This document shows positions 1,370 to 8,060 of a stretch of 8,060 nt of DNA, piece by piece. Each line of letters begins with the position of its first letter. Position 1 is the first letter of the stretch. The notes under the pieces were generated by a model that was not told the origin of the DNA, searched no databases, and was given only the letters and a program-made list of their open reading frames with translations. The DNA is from an uncultured bacterium (lineage in GTDB: Bacteria; Bacillota; Clostridia; Lachnospirales; Lachnospiraceae), in assembly GCA_947086625.1 (NCBI GenBank), contig CAMTZV010000044.1, forward strand, positions 1 through 8,060. The letters run 5' to 3'. The position numbers and the translations under genes are program-made.

Positions 1370-2524
1370 TCACATTGCGGCGCGGTACACCTGTATGACG
1401 TCCCCCGCGCGCGCTTTCCCGATGTTGGTATCCATGCACGCATCCGCGACCGCCAGCTTTGCCAGCGCCGGGAAATCCGATTCCTTCACGATTTTCAGCT
1501 CCCGAAGCCTCCCCGGGATGCCGACCTCCCCCGCAAGCGCACGGACCGCGCGCACGACCTCGTGAACCATGCTCATGCCCGGCTCCTCCCGGATGCCAAA
1601 CGCCTTCCCGATCTTTTTGAACCGGCCCTGCGCCTGTAAAAACTGCCCGTTGTATTCCAGCACATACGGCAGGAGAATCGCGTTGCAGACGCCGTGGGGC
1701 AGGTTGTAAAAGCCGCCCAGCGCGTGCGCCATCGCATGCACCATGCCAAGGCCCGCGTTGGAGAACGCCATGCCCGCCACATACTGCGCGTACGCCATCA
1801 TCTCTCTGGCCTCTTCGTCTGTGCCGTCCCGCACGGCGCGGGGCAGGTATTCGCGGATCACGCCGATCGCCCAGTAGGCGTCCTTGTCCGTCAGCGGCGT
1901 GGCGCGCCATGTCATCGCCGCCTCGATCGCATGCGTTAAGGCGTCCATACCGGTTGACGCCGTAAGCCCCTCGGGCATGGAAATCATAAAATCCGTGTCA
2001 TTGACGGCGATATCCACGATGCAGTTCGCATCAACCATACACATTTTGCTGTGCCGCACATCGTCCGTCACAATATAAAAGCATGTCACCTCGGAGCCGG
2101 TGCCCGCCGTCGTGTTCACGGCGATGACCGGCATCCCCGGGTGAACGGACTTCTCCACGCCCTCGTAATCCTCCACGCGTCCGCCGTTTGAGAGCACGAT
2201 GCCCGCCGCCTTGCACGTGTCGATGGCGGAGCCGCCGCCTACAGCTACGAGCACCTGTGCGCCTGACGCCTTTGCCGCTTCGATACACGCGTTTACGATC
2301 CCCACCGTCGGGTTCGGCGCCACACGGTCGAAAAGCGCATACTCCGTCCCCGCCGAGGCGAGTACCCCGCCCACCCGGGATACGACACCCTGCTCCGCCA
2401 AAAATTTGTCCGTCACGATCAGTGCCCGCCGAAATCCTCGCTTTTTCAGCTCGTCCGGCAAGAGCGAAATCGCACCCCTGCCGAAAAAGCTCGTCTTCAC
2501 CGCATTGATCCTCTCTGCTCCCAT
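1370..2524 (-). CDS. fucO: Iron-dependent alcohol dehydrogenase, lactaldehyde reductase (FucO)-like
   Basis: 384 residues, full length for group III (iron-dependent) alcohol dehydrogenases. The sequence tracks E. coli FucO closely by memory: FFGRGAI near the N-terminus, the nucleotide-binding GGGSAIDTCK (96-105), TTAGTGSE (138-145), the metal-binding Asp194 and His198 in GMDALTHAIEA, then His263, His267 and His277 in MVHAMAHALGGFYNLPHG. All expected metal ligands are present. FucO-type enzymes reduce lactaldehyde to 1,2-propanediol with NADH in the cytosol, and relatives reduce propionaldehyde or acetaldehyde. The start ATG has AGGAAAGGG at 2532-2540, seven bases away. It is the last gene of the operon, 54 bases after the solute-binding protein gene and before a strong terminator. 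The neighbouring CoA-acylating aldehyde dehydrogenase suggests both share one aldehyde. PduQ- or EutG-like activity is the main alternative. Confidence 0.85.
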   Translation of the reverse strand: MGAERINAVKTSFFGRGAISLLPDELKKRGFRRALIVTDKFLAEQGVVSRVGGVLASAGTEYALFDRVAPNPTVGIVNACIEAAKASGAQVLVAVGGGSAIDTCKAAGIVLSNGGRVEDYEGVEKSVHPGMPVIAVNTTAGTGSEVTCFYIVTDDVRHSKMCMVDANCIVDIAVNDTDFMISMPEGLTASTGMDALTHAIEAAMTWRATPLTDKDAYWAIGVIREYLPRAVRDGTDEEAREMMAYAQYVAGMAFSNAGLGMVHAMAHALGGFYNLPHGVCNAILLPYVLEYNGQFLQAQGRFKKIGKAFGIREEPGMSMVHEVVRAVRALAGEVGIPGRLRELKIVKESDFPALAKLAVADACMDTNIGKARAGDVIQVYRAAM

Positions 2525-2550
2525 ACTGCTGCCCTTTCCTGATTTTACCC

Positions 2551-2580
2551 GCTGTTTTTTGCACGCTGTTTTTGCCCGCT
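2551..2580. repeat. Short imperfect tandem repeat between the binding-protein and fucO genes
   Basis: On the plus strand GCTGTTTTTTGCAC is followed by GCTGTTTTTGCCC and the beginning of a third unit, GCT. The units differ by one T and one base. The repeat spans the stop codon of the upstream gene and lies in the 54-base gap before fucO. It looks like local duplication with a length-variable homopolymer; no function is evident. Confidence 0.5.
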
Positions 2581-3694
2581 ATCCGAGCCGGTTGATCTGC
2601 TCCTGCGCGTCCGCCATCGCCTGCGCCGCCGTTTTATTTCCCGCAAACGCCTCCGCGATCTCGCGGTAAAAAATGCCGTTCTTTTCCCCCGCACATTCCA
2701 TGTCCGGCAGGGGCCTTGCAGCGGAAAACATCTTTTGCTGGCAGCCGTACCACGGATAGGTGCTCTCTCCCTTCTCATAGCTCTCCCGCCGCACCGGTGC
2801 GCCGCTCACGCTTCCGGCAATCCGGTCAACCGCCGGGCTTCTCAGATAAGCCAGAAAGCACTCCGCCTCCTCCTTCTTTTCGCTGCGCGCGCTCACCGCA
2901 AACGACCAGCTCACATTCCACGCCGTCGAAAACGTCGCAAAGCCAAGATCGTCTTTGTCCGCACAGCCGTCGGCGAACACCACGCCCATCTGCCCGCTCC
3001 ACGTCACGGCAAGCGAGGCCGCATGTTCGCGGATCGCCGCCGCCACCTGCTCGTTTCCGAAGTGCTCTGTCCCGGCAACGGCAATTTCCTTTAAACCACA
3101 ATACTGCTCCAGCCCGTCGATGACGCCCGGCGCATTGCAGACGGCGCGCGCTCCCTCGTACACATCCCCGCCGTTCATCCGAAGGAAGGGAAGCGCATCC
3201 GTAAAAATCTCCGACGCGTCCGCCTTGAGCGCAAGCGACGGCTTTCCGGTTTTTGCCGCGATCGTCTTTGCCGCCTGCACAAACTGCTGCGGTGTCACGA
3301 CATCGCCCCACGCTTCCCCGAGACACTCCCGCAAAACGCTTTTGCGGTAGGTGACGATATGTCCGTCACAGAACGACGGGGACAGATACGTCTTCCCGTC
3401 CAGCGTCATCTCCCGTGCAATCACCGGCAGAATGTCCTCAAAATCGTAGTCAAGCTGCGCCAGATACCCTTTGCGTATCAGATCACAGGCCCACAGATGG
3501 CCCGCCGCCATCACGATATCATAGTCCGCCCTCCCTGCAAAGACGTCCATCATCGTGTCGTAATAATGCTCCCACGGGACGACGTCAAAATCCACCGCCC
3601 CGTCAAAGCCCTCCAGTATGCCGTATTTTTGATCCACGTAGGCGGACACCGCCGGGTCACCCACCGCAAGCACCTTCAGCCCCTTCTCACTCAT
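2579..3694 (-). CDS. Solute-binding protein family 1 (SBP_bac_1-like) without signal peptide, predicted cytosolic
   Basis: 371 residues from the ATG at 3694, chosen because GGAGG (3701-3705) sits six bases upstream and because this start falls 14 bases after the aldehyde dehydrogenase stop. A longer frame begins at 3775 but overlaps the previous gene and has no RBS support. The chain begins almost directly with the first strand of the fold (GLKVLAVGDPAVSAYVDQKY). It continues with typical extracellular solute-binding features: YDIVMAAGHLWACDLIRKGY, GKTYLSPSFCDGHIVTYRK, and a C-terminal helix ending in AQEQINRLG. There is no hydrophobic leader and no lipobox with either start, so it should stay in the cytosol, which is unusual for this family. 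No permease or ATPase gene is nearby. It lies between two aldehyde-processing enzymes; a sensor, carrier or metabolite-buffering role is conceivable but unproven. Ligand unknown. Confidence 0.8.
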   Translation of the reverse strand: MSEKGLKVLAVGDPAVSAYVDQKYGILEGFDGAVDFDVVPWEHYYDTMMDVFAGRADYDIVMAAGHLWACDLIRKGYLAQLDYDFEDILPVIAREMTLDGKTYLSPSFCDGHIVTYRKSVLRECLGEAWGDVVTPQQFVQAAKTIAAKTGKPSLALKADASEIFTDALPFLRMNGGDVYEGARAVCNAPGVIDGLEQYCGLKEIAVAGTEHFGNEQVAAAIREHAASLAVTWSGQMGVVFADGCADKDDLGFATFSTAWNVSWSFAVSARSEKKEEAECFLAYLRSPAVDRIAGSVSGAPVRRESYEKGESTYPWYGCQQKMFSAARPLPDMECAGEKNGIFYREIAEAFAGNKTAAQAMADAQEQINRLG

Positions 3695-3700
3695 ACCGCA

Positions 3701-3705
3701 CCTCC
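3701..3705 (-). promoter_or_regulatory. Ribosome binding site that fixes the signal-less start of the solute-binding protein
   Basis: The minus strand reads GGAGG, six bases before the ATG at 3694. It matters because it argues that the leaderless N-terminus is real and not a misplaced start. Confidence 0.75.
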
Positions 3706-3708
3706 ATC

Positions 3709-5124
3709 TCAGACAATCCGAAGCCCGCCGTCCGCCAGCTGGCATCTGCGGAACCTCGTAAAGCTCTTTGCGCACGTCAGCCCCTCGCCCGTAGGCCCCG
3801 CGATCGTCATCGTCGCATGGCCCTCGCCGCCGATGCCGACGCCCTTTAGCGTCGCGCCGTTTTTCACGAAAATCGTCGTCTCGATTTGCTTCGCAAAATA
3901 AGTCATATTGTCCACATTTTTGGAAAACATGGACGCCGTGTGGCGGTTGCCGCTCTCCGCGATGAGCGCATAGCCCGCTGCCTCCTTAAAATCGCGGCAG
4001 CTAACAACCGGAAGGATCGGCATGAGCTGCTCCACCAGCACAAACGGATGGTCGTGCGGCACCTCGCAGACGAGCAGCCTCGTATCTCTTTTTCCGGAAA
4101 CGCCGAGCTGCTCTAACATCAGGCCCGCATCCTTTCCGACCCACTTTTTGTTGACGGAATACGCGCCGTCCCTCTGCAAAAACACGATGTCAAGCAGCGC
4201 TTTTGTCTGCGCGGCGCTTAACACGTATGCGCCCTCGCGGGCCATGGCCGCGACCAGCTCCCGCGCGACCGATTCGACCGCAAACACCTCCTTCTCCGCC
4301 AGACACAGCAGGTTGTTGTCAAAGGACGCGCCCCGGAAAATTTCTTTTGCCGCCAGCGCAATGTCCGCCGTCTCGTCCACCACGACCGGCGGATTGCCCG
4401 CGCCCGCCCCGATCGTCTTTTTGCCGGAGCGAAGCAGGGCGTTCACCATCGGCATACCTCCCGTCCCGACCATCAGCCGGATTTTCGGGCTGGAGGTGAG
4501 GATGTCGACCGTCTCCATCGCAGGCTCCGCCGTCATCGTAATCAGGCCCGCCGGCCCGCCGTTTTCCACGATCGTATCGTGCAGGATCTGAAGCGCGTAG
4601 GCACAGGTGCGCTTCGCGCCCGGGTGTACGTTGAAGACGACCGCGTTTCCGCCCGCGATCATACTGATCGTATTGTTAATGATCGTCTCCGTCGGGTTCG
4701 TGGAGGGCGTGATCGCGCCGATAACGCCGTACGGCCCCCGCTCCTCCAGCATCAGCCCGGCGTCGCCCGAAACCGCGTCCGTCTTTAAGCACTCCGTCCC
4801 CGGCGTGCCGTTGATGACCGCGATGTGCTTCGCAACCTTGTCCTCAAAACGGCCCATGCCGGTCTCGTCGCGCACGCGGCGCGCAAAATCCTCGGCGTGC
4901 GCAAGGCTCACCGCGCGGATTGCCCCTATGATGCGCTCCCTGTCCTGCAAGCGGTAATTCATATACCAGTCCTTCTGCGCCGCATACGCGGCGTCGATCG
5001 CATCCTCACAGCGCGCAAACACGCCGCGGTCGCCCTGTGCGGGCATATTCCCTGTCCCCGGCTCCTCCATCCCCGCCAGCACATGCCTGACGATCCGCGC
5101 AACCTCATTTGCAGTAATATCCAT
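3709..5124 (-). CDS. CoA-acylating aldehyde dehydrogenase, EutE/PduP family, with encapsulation-peptide-like N-terminus
   Basis: 471 residues, full length against EutE (about 467), with the same C-terminal ending style (RFRRC...RIV). Family marks in order: ETGMGRFEDK (87-96), TPSTNPTETIINN (139-151), GAGAGNPPVVVDETAD (239-254), catalytic Cys274 in FDNNLLC, PILPVV (369-374), and GIGGEGHATMTI (430-441). The family converts aldehyde + NAD + CoA to acyl-CoA + NADH; acetaldehyde (EutE) and propionaldehyde (PduP) are the known substrates, and the choice cannot be made by eye. Residues 3-19 (ITANEVARIVRHVLAGM) form an amphipathic helix followed by a Gly/Pro-rich linker, like the peptide that directs EutE and PduP into bacterial microcompartments; no shell gene is in the window. 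AAGGGAGG (5131-5138), six bases upstream, fixes the ATG. First gene of the operon, behind a consensus promoter. Confidence 0.9.
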   Translation of the reverse strand: MDITANEVARIVRHVLAGMEEPGTGNMPAQGDRGVFARCEDAIDAAYAAQKDWYMNYRLQDRERIIGAIRAVSLAHAEDFARRVRDETGMGRFEDKVAKHIAVINGTPGTECLKTDAVSGDAGLMLEERGPYGVIGAITPSTNPTETIINNTISMIAGGNAVVFNVHPGAKRTCAYALQILHDTIVENGGPAGLITMTAEPAMETVDILTSSPKIRLMVGTGGMPMVNALLRSGKKTIGAGAGNPPVVVDETADIALAAKEIFRGASFDNNLLCLAEKEVFAVESVARELVAAMAREGAYVLSAAQTKALLDIVFLQRDGAYSVNKKWVGKDAGLMLEQLGVSGKRDTRLLVCEVPHDHPFVLVEQLMPILPVVSCRDFKEAAGYALIAESGNRHTASMFSKNVDNMTYFAKQIETTIFVKNGATLKGVGIGGEGHATMTIAGPTGEGLTCAKSFTRFRRCQLADGGLRIV

Positions 5125-5286: not shown

Positions 5287-6558
5287 TTATTTTTCTTTGT
5301 TTATTTTTGTTTCTCCCGATTTCTCCTTTTGTCCGCCGCTGATCCCGAGCAATATCCGGCTCTCCCACAGCGCACAGGCCGAATCATAATCGAATTCCAC
5401 GGTCTGTATGTTCACCCCGGGGTAGCGCTCGTGAAGCTTCTTTCGGACGCCCCGCCCGCACACATGGCTCACCAGACAGTCAAAGGGGTGCACGATCAGA
5501 ATATTTTCACAGCCCTTTCCGACCAAGTCTGCCGTCTCCGCCGCGACGAGCCACCCGTCCCCCGCATGGCAGCCCCTGTCGATAACGGGTGCGGCCAGCG
5601 CCCTCAGCTCTGCAAAATCCGCATCCGGCACAAAGCCGCCCTCCGCAACGCTCTCATTCAGATCGCGCTGGATACGGCCCAGGTAGCCAAGCAGCGCACC
5701 GCACGCCCTTTGCTCCATCCGCCCTGCGCCGCGAAGCCCGCGCTCCTCCCGCTCGCTGTCCACGAGATAGATGCAGTAATTGACAAATCCGCCCATGCGG
5801 TACGCGCAGTCCTGCTCCTGCAAAAGCCGTTCCAGATGCCTGTTTCCGATGGGTGAAAACTTCATATAGATCTCCCCCGTAATCCCGACCCGACGAAGCG
5901 TGCGCCCCTCCACCGGGATCGCCGCAAAGTCGCGGACGATCTGCCGGTAACGCTCCTTTCGCCTCTTCGCCGAAAGATTGTTCCCGGCCCGGATATCCCC
6001 GCAAAGCCTGCGGTTCCAGCGCTCCATGCAGGCCCCCGCCTCGCCGCGTCTTCGCTCGTACGGCCGCACCTGCTGGTAAAGCGTCATCAAAAGATCGCCG
6101 TAGCACACGGCCGCGGCGGCGCGCAAAAGCAGTCCCGGCGTGATCGCAAAGCCCGGATGCCGGTGCTGCCCGAAGGCGTTGAGGGAGATGACCGGGATGT
6201 GCTTATACCCGGCCCTTTTCAGACTTTCAATGATCAGATGGTAGATGTTTCCGGCGCGGCACGCGCCCCCGGCCTGCGGCTCCATAAAGGCGATCCGATC
6301 CGGGTCAAACCTTCCCGAGCGGAGCGCCGCCAGCACCTGCCCCAAAATGAGCACGGTCGGCAGGCAGTAATCCCCGCTGATAAAGGGCAGCGCATACCCG
6401 GGCAGATCCCGCTCCTCCGGAAGTATTTCCAGACGGTAGCCGCAGCCGGCAAACGCCGCCTGCAAAAGCGCATTGTGGTAATGCAGCATATCCGGCAGCA
6501 GGATCGTGTGCGTGCGCTTCATCTCTTTTGTAAACGTTGCCCCAGGCGTTTTTTTCAC
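5287..6558 (-). CDS. COG3581-type protein related to 2-hydroxyacyl-CoA dehydratase (HgdB-like), stand-alone
   Basis: 423 residues from the GTG at 6558. It resembles the C-terminal module of the large acyl-CoA dehydratase activase-related proteins: FTKEMKRTHTILLPDM near the N-terminus, GDYCLPT (Cys65), GGACRAGNIYHL (Cys100), GEIYMKFSPIGN in the middle, and HPFDCLVSHVCGRG (Cys361) near the end. The three cysteines sit where the family has conserved ones and could hold a [4Fe-4S] cluster. The GTG start was chosen because a G6 run (6570-6575) provides a Shine-Dalgarno-like site and because the FTKEM segment, conserved in relatives, lies before the next ATG at 6522. An upstream ATG at 6600 lacks an RBS. 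No activase ATPase gene is adjacent. Its reaction is unknown: relatives include dehydratases and reductases activated by an ATP-dependent partner. No terminator separates it from the next operon. Confidence 0.8.
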   Translation of the reverse strand: MKKTPGATFTKEMKRTHTILLPDMLHYHNALLQAAFAGCGYRLEILPEERDLPGYALPFISGDYCLPTVLILGQVLAALRSGRFDPDRIAFMEPQAGGACRAGNIYHLIIESLKRAGYKHIPVISLNAFGQHRHPGFAITPGLLLRAAAAVCYGDLLMTLYQQVRPYERRRGEAGACMERWNRRLCGDIRAGNNLSAKRRKERYRQIVRDFAAIPVEGRTLRRVGITGEIYMKFSPIGNRHLERLLQEQDCAYRMGGFVNYCIYLVDSEREERGLRGAGRMEQRACGALLGYLGRIQRDLNESVAEGGFVPDADFAELRALAAPVIDRGCHAGDGWLVAAETADLVGKGCENILIVHPFDCLVSHVCGRGVRKKLHERYPGVNIQTVEFDYDSACALWESRILLGISGGQKEKSGETKINKEK

Positions 6559-6569
6559 GGCTGTTTTTT

Positions 6570-6575
6570 CCCCCC
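6570..6575 (-). promoter_or_regulatory. Shine-Dalgarno-like G run supporting the GTG start at 6558
   Basis: The minus strand reads AAAGGGGGG, then 11 bases, then GTG. The spacing is at the long end but better than anything before the ATGs at 6600 or 6522, so it favours the GTG start. Confidence 0.4.
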
Positions 6576-6618
6576 TTTGCCCTGCTGCGGACGAATACAT
6601 CCGGCCAGGGATAAAACG

Positions 6619-7068
6619 TCATGGCTTTCTATCAGGAAGCCATTGGATAAACGCTGTCTTATCCGTGCTGTTATAGCCCGCGTTTCTGTAAAAATCCAGC
6701 GTCTTTTTCTCGCTGCTTCCTGTCAGCAGCATCATTTTATAGCAGCCGCACCGTTCTGCGATCCCTTTTGCATATGCCAGACATTCGGACGCCAGGCCGC
6801 GCCCTCTGTAATCCGCGTGGGTAACGACATTTTCCAGAAAAGCGTACGGGCGTACCTGCCTCGTCAAATTCGGGATAATCACGCACACGCACGAAGAGAC
6901 GATGCGCCCGTCGATCTCATTCACAATCAGATGATGGTTTTCATCCTCTCAAATCTGTTTCCACGTATCCGACAAATGCTCCGAACCTTCGGGGACGGAT
7001 TCTTCGTGTAAATATAAATACAGCTCTAAAATTCCTTTTAAATCTTCTTTTCCGGCTTCCCGTACCAT
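6619..7068 (-). pseudogene. GNAT-family N-acetyltransferase gene interrupted by an in-frame TGA
   Basis: From the ATG at 7068 the frame reads MVREAGKEDLKGILELYLYL and continues to codon 39, where TGA (6949-6951) stops it. The same frame then resumes without any shift, giving EDENHHLIVNEIDG and the acetyl-CoA-binding segment ENVVTHADYRGRGLASECLAY (R88-G-R-G-L-A93), and ends at 6619 after 149 positions, a normal GNAT length. GGAGGG (7079-7084) lies ten bases before the ATG. The two parts together match one complete GNAT domain, so a single substitution seems to have broken it. A GTG at 6924 could restart translation but has no RBS and would lack the first strand and helix. Upstream codons are AT-richer than in the neighbouring genes. 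GNAT enzymes transfer acetyl from acetyl-CoA to amines; the substrate is unknown. A sequencing error is possible. Confidence 0.75.
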
Positions 7069-7103: not shown

Positions 7104-8060
7104 TCACAGCCCCTCAAACGGGAAATGCTTCCCGCCCCGCGGGTACTCCCGGTCGAGGTATTCCTCGCGGATGAGCCGCTCCACCGCCTGAATCTCGATC
7201 AAAAGCTCCGCCGCCGACATGCGCAGCGCCCCGCCGGAGCTGACCGTGAGCTGTTCGAGCGAATCGGACGTAGCGACGGTCACCTTCACCTTTTTGCCAA
7301 GGCCGCGCACATACTCCTCGATATACATGTCCGCCGTCTGCCCCTCTCTTGTAAACACAAGACGAATATTGTGATAGTCCTGCTCGCTGCCCGCGCCGCC
7401 CGTTCGCCGGTAGGCGTCGTAGACGACAATCAGTCTGCATTGCTTATAGCCCTGATAGTTGCACAAAATGTCGTTGAGCCTGTCCCTTGCGCCGTCGAGA
7501 TTGTGCGCCGCCAGCTTTTTTAATTCCTCCCACGCGAAAATAACGTTATAGCCGTCCACGATCAGGTATTCTTCCGGCGCATCCGGGCGCTTTCTCGGAT
7601 AGTCGGACGCCGCAGGCGCTTTCACGCGCGACGCGTAAGAGACGGATTTTTCGGGCTTCTCGTAGCCAAGGTTCGTATCCCCCGCGCCCGTTCGCCGCTT
7701 CACCTCGCCGAATGTGCGCGCGAAGATCTCCTCGAGCTCCTTCTCATCCGCATAGGTTCCCGCGCCGCGCGGCGTGCGCGCCTTCTCGCGCGCCTGCTCC
7801 CGCCGCTGCTCGCCCTGCACGCGCGCACGCTCGTATTCCTCCGGGTCAAACGCGTCCGCCGCCGGAGCGTCTCCCTGCGCAAGCGCTAAGGGAAGATGCA
7901 TATAATTTTCCACCTCGTACCACGGCACGACAACCCCCGCCCCGTGCGAACAGAACACCGAGCCGGTCGGATTGTCCAGGTCGCTCTCGCTGTCATAACC
8001 GATCTCCAATACGATCCGCTCCTGCTTTTCCTCCCCGAGCGGCCGGTAATCCGCCAGCTC
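7104..8060 (-). CDS. C-terminal part of a translation GTPase (TetM/EF-G-like) fused to a YacP/Rae1-type NYN endonuclease domain
   Basis: 318 residues are visible; the frame is open to the right edge, so the N-terminus lies outside the window. Residues 1-57 (with TGSVFCSHGAGVVVPWYEV and YMHLP) look like the tail of the TetM/TetW-like translation factor GTPases of clostridia. Residues 58-162 are a charged, Arg- and Ala-rich linker with one predicted helix (EKELEEIFARTFGEV). Residues 163-302 are a complete NYN/YacP domain: EEYLIVDGYNVIFAW (Asp169), ARDRL, VVYDAY (Asp215), GQTADMYIEE (Asp244), ATSDSLEQ (Asp266), GALRMSAAELL. In Bacillus subtilis this domain is Rae1, which cuts mRNA in the ribosomal A site. 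A GTPase-nuclease fusion would thus be ribosome-directed. NYN identity is strong; the GTPase assignment rests on a short tail. A TTG at 8009 is internal and not the start. The gene ends 35 bases before the GNAT start. Confidence 0.8.
   Translation of the reverse strand, partial: ELADYRPLGEEKQERIVLEIGYDSESDLDNPTGSVFCSHGAGVVVPWYEVENYMHLPLALAQGDAPAADAFDPEEYERARVQGEQRREQAREKARTPRGAGTYADEKELEEIFARTFGEVKRRTGAGDTNLGYEKPEKSVSYASRVKAPAASDYPRKRPDAPEEYLIVDGYNVIFAWEELKKLAAHNLDGARDRLNDILCNYQGYKQCRLIVVYDAYRRTGGAGSEQDYHNIRLVFTREGQTADMYIEEYVRGLGKKVKVTVATSDSLEQLTVSSGGALRMSAAELLIEIQAVERLIREEYLDREYPRGGKHFPFEGL

Follow-up and report, generated by a model that had tools for sequence, protein, structure and literature searches.

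The window analysed here, 8060 bases long, is the entire contig G000:C44 of a 2.4-Mb draft genome that is 68% complete. Its minus strand carries a 318-residue frame, open at the contig end and closed by a stop at 7104, and the locus raises the question of whether this frame is the tail of a translational GTPase joined to a nuclease of the Rae1 type and, if so, what such a protein would do in the cell. A preliminary description of the DNA had claimed a fusion of this kind and had proposed a role in ribosome rescue or the response to antibiotics. B. subtilis Rae1 is a ribosomal A-site mRNA endonuclease, according to the accessible text of two articles (PMC6613710, PMC12320835). The parts of the gene were read as follows, with L080, an intact fusion, as the reference.

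7104 to 8060, minus strand: 3' part of a GTPase-NYN fusion gene (318 codons and the stop), its 5' end lost at the contig end; the frame is open to the contig end and identical to L080 at 216 of 323 aligned positions.
7890 to 8060, minus strand: residues 1-57, C-terminal extension of an EF-G/TetM-like GTPase, past domain V (BLASTP; 41/57 identical to L080, ungapped).
7935 to 7955, minus strand: FCSHGAG motif within the GTPase extension (FCxHGxG in 90/91 fused relatives).
7575 to 7889, minus strand: charged linker, residues 58-162 (variable in the alignment, partly disordered in the L080 model).
7713 to 7739, minus strand: linker motif ELEEIFART, of the form E[ILV]xxI[FLY]xxT, conserved in fused proteins only.
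7149 to 7568, minus strand: NYN_YacP (Rae1-type) nuclease domain, residues 165-304 (Pfam PF05991, E 1.8e-48; Rae1 structure chains, E 1.4e-26).
7545 to 7556, minus strand: DGYN motif, with D169 aligned to Rae1 residue 7 (DGYN in 91/91 fused relatives).
7317 to 7337, minus strand: TADMYIE motif, with D244 aligned to Rae1 residue 81 (in 89/91 fused relatives).
7263 to 7274, minus strand: ATSD motif ([AV]TSD in 87/91 fused relatives).

The identity of the nuclease half is read from its sequence. Residues 166-304 matched positions 1-141 of the 166 in the Pfam profile NYN_YacP with a score of 165.1 bits, above the Pfam cut-off of 24.6, and a sequence search of solved structures aligned residues 165-300 with the B. 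subtilis YacP/Rae1 chains (5mq8, 5mq9). Of the motifs singled out in the preliminary description, DGYN, YDAY, TAD and ATSD were found in the protein. In the alignment, two acidic residues, D169 and D244, lay over Rae1 positions 7 and 81, which we take to be the catalytic residues. The C-terminal YacP-like NYN domain that marks the Tet-NYN fusions of Atkinson 2015 is present in the window protein (PF05991).

Residues 1-57 alone gave no Pfam or NCBIfam match. BLASTP, at E<=1e-3, matched them to 91/91 fused relatives (best 73% identity, E 3e-27) and to 22/25 unfused GTPases, and a control with shuffled residues 1-57 matched the fused set in 0/100 trials at the same threshold. These residues are the GTPase's own extension after domain V, distinct from the EFG_C domain, and belong to that GTPase family, not to an unrelated one as the preliminary description had allowed. 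The 91 intact fused proteins were obtained by omitting L105, L125 and L132 from the 80 named loci and dropping one duplicate among the 92 remaining rows; broken or contig-split fusions (L057-L059) were excluded from the unfused set. The window shows only this last extension of an EF-G/Tet-type GTPase; the contig ends within the gene, and no further piece of the GTPase was found elsewhere in the window's own draft genome (68% complete), where the weaker EF-G-like matches on contigs C91, C260 and C114 belonged to other GTPases.

The missing part was supplied by the nearest named relatives, L080 (Eubacterium sp. isolate RGIG8621) and L081 (bacterium isolate SUG1317). L080 is an intact 915-residue fusion, 67% identical to the window protein over the aligned stretch, that carries GTP_EFTU, EF-G domains II, III, IV and V and NYN_YacP in a single frame; L081 has GTP_EFTU, EF-G domains II, IV and V and NYN_YacP, likewise in one frame. 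The G1 motif and the NYN domain shared a single frame in 78 of the 80 named loci listed, which were kept out of at least 588 relatives; the two exceptions were L132, whose frame lies at a contig edge, and L125, whose frame has 347 aa. Among the protein matches listed, the order was GTPase then NYN in 120/120, and the name given to them by NCBI is 'translation factor GTPase family protein'. The motifs AHVD[AS]GKTT, RGITI and DGYN occurred in all 91 intact fused proteins and the domain IV tip KHTEGGDF in 90, and a fold search, whose matches listed mainly cover residues 1-609, found the GTPase to be EF-G-like over that range. The claimed fusion and both of its partners were borne out (PF05991; BLASTP with residues 1-57): domain searches gave NYN_YacP in the window protein and GTP_EFTU through EFG_C in the full-length relatives, where the frame thus does not start without a GTPase domain, the other outcome that the preliminary description had named as refuting. 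This confirms 7104-8060 on the minus strand as the last part of a GTPase-NYN fusion gene truncated by the contig end, with the bulk of its GTPase predicted from the intact relatives.

The surroundings of the gene were considered as a guide to function. Guilt by association within an operon was rejected, since the neighbours of the fused gene were not conserved across 95 loci (the commonest neighbour cluster occurred at 22/95, in scattered positions; L154, L048, L049, L050 and L051 were left out because they were not anchored). An antibiotic-type leader or riboswitch was also rejected, with no Rfam match in the window; the window and nine relatives together gave two matches, both distant from the gene (L083 10809-10999 and L087 10468-10762). 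The remainder of the window, all on the minus strand, holds, immediately downstream of the fusion, a gene for a GNAT acetyltransferase (6619-7068) with an in-frame TGA at 6949-6951, past which the same frame continues and matches Acetyltransf_1; a 437-aa frame at 5287-6600 with no Pfam match at E<=1e-3; and, at 1370-5124, consecutive genes for an aldehyde dehydrogenase, a solute-binding protein and an iron-containing alcohol dehydrogenase.

How often the fusion occurs, a matter raised in the preliminary description, was addressed by a survey of three overlapping genome samples, in which an NYN frame of at least 700 aa was counted as fused and one of less than 300 aa as short. The family sample had 119 fused, 12 short and 4 in-between frames (NYN in 135/150 genomes), the order sample 47, 74 and 2 (123/146), and the class sample, Clostridia, 66, 58 and 4 (128/196); the in-between frames include the window's own, cut by the contig end. 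By our own count, the fused genes of the class sample fell in 21 GTDB families, and in the family sample the fusion was an ordinary chromosomal gene present in one copy in 119/150 genomes. The function of the NYN domain is dispensable, since 15/150 family genomes have no NYN at all. At E<=1e-30 the fused protein matched nothing in 14 of these 15; the other, G062, gave a weak EF-G-like match.

None of the 66 fused class-level genomes has a credible second rae1. Second NYN matches appeared in five fused genomes, G039 and G076 (family), G199 and G170 (order) and G422 (class), as contig-edge pieces, small fragments or, in G422, a match of 21.3 bits, which lies below the family cut-off and is the only second short NYN match in a fused class-level genome. 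The matches in G199 and G170 are a broken rae1 at its old place. One draft genome, G419 (61% complete), has two fused copies, G419:C16 and G419:C48, plus a broken rae1 remnant at sigH.

That old place is well defined. The stand-alone short NYN gene was followed directly, on the same strand, by sigH in 28/30 genomes, with gaps of 11-173 bp, and preceded by rlmB in 22/30; L049 and L051 have the order cysS, mrnC, rlmB, rae1, sigH. In B. subtilis, yacO (rlmB) and rae1 are adjacent and co-transcribed, as the accessible text of PMC6613710 states. A few stand-alone NYN genes lie outside the operon, namely L225 (G241) and L242, which have neither neighbour, and L047 (G059), which is elsewhere; G059 and G241 also carry an unfused GTPase. 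For the fusion-bearing genomes, sigH was sought in 81 (80 with fusions and the window's own) and found in 73, and about 1.5 kb beside it was examined at each locus (826 bp upstream in L287). The gene rlmB lay upstream of sigH on the same strand in 55/73 (34/49 and 21/24). An intact NYN gene beside sigH was found in 0/73, the window's own genome included: there (L305), rlmB and sigH are separated by 98 bp with no NYN between them, and the stand-alone gene of the rlmB-rae1-sigH operon is absent from its slot in this genome (68% complete).

Seven of the 73 fusion genomes retain remnants of rae1 at sigH: L196 (G315), L266 (G399), L269 (G419), L277 (G440), L290 (G170), L304 (G150) and L309 (G199), that in L266 being weak (E 2e-4). 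In the first two sets, which comprise 49 loci and 166,740 bases, 7/7 NYN matches at E<=0.01 lay in the interval from rlmB to sigH, on the strand of the operon. In six remnant loci, all but L304, which has no rlmB nearby, the longest open frames of this interval were 44-63 aa. Three of the remnants resemble the intact operonic rae1 of close kin. The best match was the rae1 of G348, of the same genus, for G315 (family f50), the rae1 of G344 and G370, of the same family, for G419 (f46), and the rae1 of G396, of the same family, for G440 (f45); G348, G344, G370 and G396 were absent from the 82 genomes in which a GTPase matched at E<=1e-90. The intact, broken and deleted states of rae1 all occur within one genus, g263, in which 1) G348 has an intact rae1 and no fusion, 2) in G315 the fusion is present and rae1 is broken, within a stretch whose DNA is 79.6% identical, and 3) G422 has the fusion and lacks the rae1-bearing stretch.

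The most economical interpretation is that arrival of the fusion left the resident rae1 superfluous. Because the stand-alone gene is missing or broken at its place in the sampled relatives with a fusion, the fusion likely took over the job of Rae1, and it is most likely that it displaced Rae1 and does its work. The Rae1-like activity put forward in the preliminary description is upheld to this extent, by the want of an intact rae1 at the sigH slot in 73/73 genomes and by the seven broken remnants; docking on stalled ribosomes and cutting there are the predicted part of that claim. The loss of rae1 could alternatively reflect harm from two nucleases or two copies and not equal function. Taken as a whole, the proposal that an EF-G/TetM-like GTPase joined to a Rae1-type NYN domain replaced Rae1, and is predicted to bind ribosomes and cut A-site mRNA by means of the tethered nuclease, is probably correct. 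Weighing against it are the genomes that lack any NYN, the absence of an obligate pairing before fusion, the competition of domain IV and NYN for the A site, the unconserved neighbours of the gene and the 68% completeness of the window's own genome.

The same genomic context bears on a different substrate. The fused NYN domain might instead process rRNA or tRNA at or near the ribosome, the GTPase serving in ribosome assembly or work on the subunits. NYN domains have been proposed to act in rRNA and tRNA maturation (a reference in the accessible text of PMC4342817), the stand-alone rae1 adjoins mrnC and rlmB, helpers of the rRNA genes, and the GTPase is EF-G-like over residues 1-609; nevertheless, the protein that the fused NYN most likely replaces is Rae1, for which the available text of PMC6613710 and PMC12320835 describes A-site mRNA cleavage in B. 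subtilis, and we regard a role in rRNA or tRNA processing as unlikely.

The linker addresses whether the two halves work together at all. It varied across the fused relatives, and the distance from FCxHGxG to DGYN was 126 residues in the window protein and 85-164 (median 110) in the 90/91 relatives that have both motifs; in the L080 model, disorder was predicted at 683-695 and 707-749, parts of the linker. A fusion that provides mere co-expression, with domains that act apart and a GTPase that has an unrelated task of its own, would be consistent with so long and partly disordered a connection, with the two adjacent frames in G042, and with the unfused GTPases that occur without any NYN in 5/12 class-level and 1/14 order-level genomes. 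Against it, the motif E[ILV]xxI[FLY]xxT was found in the linker of 80/91 fused proteins and in 0/25 unfused GTPases and 0/33 stand-alone NYN proteins, and the fusion persists over 21 GTDB families, so that mere co-expression is quite unlikely. The G042 arrangement (G042:C93:5579-8198; L058, L072) consists of a GTPase frame of 712 aa and an NYN frame of 214 aa and is a split or interrupted fusion. An obligate partnership of GTPase and NYN before the fusion was considered as well and rejected: among genomes with the unfused GTPase, 13/14 (order) and 7/12 (class) had an NYN, close to the base rates of 123/146 and 128/196, where GTPase matches of at least 340 bits (322 for G338) were counted by eye and interrupted or contig-edge pieces omitted. 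The pair was thus not obligate before fusion, as the GTPases without NYN attest.

The history of the fusion was approached with trees from quick searches, for which support is SH-aLRT only. With the linker and NYN excluded from the alignment, the fused GTPases formed one clade, 73 fused against 25 unfused, with support of 100; 30 of the 77 named fusions were used in the GTPase tree and 22 in the NYN tree, L253 was dropped for want of a usable frame, and L065 and the EF-G outgroup stood on long branches in the GTPase tree. In the NYN tree the fused rows required two changes, and a single clade was not rejected at p-AU 0.785, a value which does not prove one clade. A 21-row clade of the GTPase tree (support 100) mixes two Lachnospirales-family rows with f31, f45, f46, f50, f72, f86 and f76, and a 12-row clade of the NYN tree (support 99) mixes two such rows with f31, f45, f46, f50, f72 and f86. 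Since clades in both trees mix families in this way, the sequences point to a horizontal spread of the fusion.

A likely mode of action of the fusion can be outlined. The GTPase would bring the NYN domain to ribosomes whose A site is stalled or vacant. With its complete EF-G domain arrangement and the highly conserved tip of domain IV, the GTPase part is expected to bind at the factor site and extend into the A site. The A site has room for only one of domain IV and NYN at a time, and for this reason a hand-over is proposed in which GTP hydrolysis would make domain IV depart and leave the A site to the NYN domain, which on its long flexible linker would enter and cut the mRNA. Cleavage would truncate the mRNA, on which rescue of the tmRNA type could then act. 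GTPase-guided cutting in the A site is what we infer from the sequence features of the fused protein. A bolder version is offered tentatively, somewhat short of an even expectation: the fusion may be a horizontally spread, GTP-gated A-site mRNA nuclease, in effect a translational GTPase with a Rae1 of its own, that scans ribosomes, clears a stalled A site and then cuts the mRNA in it, and displaces the resident rae1 wherever it arrives in Clostridia, leaving a fossil between rlmB and sigH. The fusion, through its tie to an EF-G-like GTPase, points to a candidate for the step that recruits Rae1 to ribosomes, and it would allow the GTP-dependence of A-site mRNA cutting to be addressed in a single protein.

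The role in the response to antibiotics fared less well. The best NCBIfam match of four full-length relatives was tet_protect (NF012153; E 1e-119 to 3e-129), and the scores of 425.9, 426.4, 432.3 and 400.5 bits all fell below the family cut-off of 775. The YSPVS motif in domain IV loop III, which TetO has, and which we take to be a functional site of the tetracycline protection proteins, was found in 0/91 fused relatives. The fused protein should therefore not be annotated as conferring tetracycline resistance, even though on sequence the Tet family is its nearest named kin. That it is a tetracycline-type ribosomal protection protein whose RNase adds a second means of drug resistance, as suggested in print (accessible text of PMC4342817) and as the tet_protect match would allow, is very unlikely given 400-432 bits against 775 in 4/4 relatives, KHTEGGDF (90 proteins) in place of YSPVS at the tip, the single ordinary chromosomal copy in 119/150 family genomes, and separate GTPases of about 644 aa in other genomes, 31-33% identical, that appear to resemble true Tet proteins more. 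Proteins filed as Tet-like are, within the fused clade, more likely to act in ribosome quality control than to determine resistance, a point of consequence for the annotation of resistance genes in gut bacteria.

Several known systems can be compared with the fused protein. The NYN domain is like that of B. subtilis Rae1/YacP (5mq8, 5mq9) over residues 165-300, with the acidic motifs retained; Rae1, however, is a stand-alone protein of about 170 residues, while here the domain is attached to a GTPase and the operon slot is empty. The ribosomal protection proteins TetM and TetO (3j9y, 4v6v) resemble the GTPase half: when a full-length relative was searched against the sequences of solved structures, TetO ranked first, over domains G to V (E 4.6e-75). 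The fused relatives differ from these proteins in scoring below the family cut-off, in having another domain IV loop III, and in the addition of a C-terminal extension, a linker and the NYN domain. They also fall below the EF-G cut-off (TIGR00484, 659.4 bits), with 305.5, 310.8, 298.2 and 282.3 bits in four full-length relatives. Rae1 was described later than the first account of the fusions. That account, the accessible text of Atkinson 2015 (PMC4342817), reports the acquisition of an NYN RNase domain of the YacP kind by Tet proteins in ten clostridiales species, in the same order of GTPase then NYN and likewise in Clostridia, so that the surmise of the preliminary description that the architecture may already be known proved correct; the same text suggests a role in resistance and mentions neither Rae1 nor the loss of a stand-alone gene. 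A literature search found the fusion only in PMC4342817 and the displacement of rae1 nowhere, while the original Rae1 papers (Leroy 2017, Condon 2018, Deves 2023) may mention the fusion. What the present analysis adds to the 2015 account is a single clade of fused proteins, in genomes without a credible second rae1 and with the slot before sigH either empty or occupied by a broken gene.
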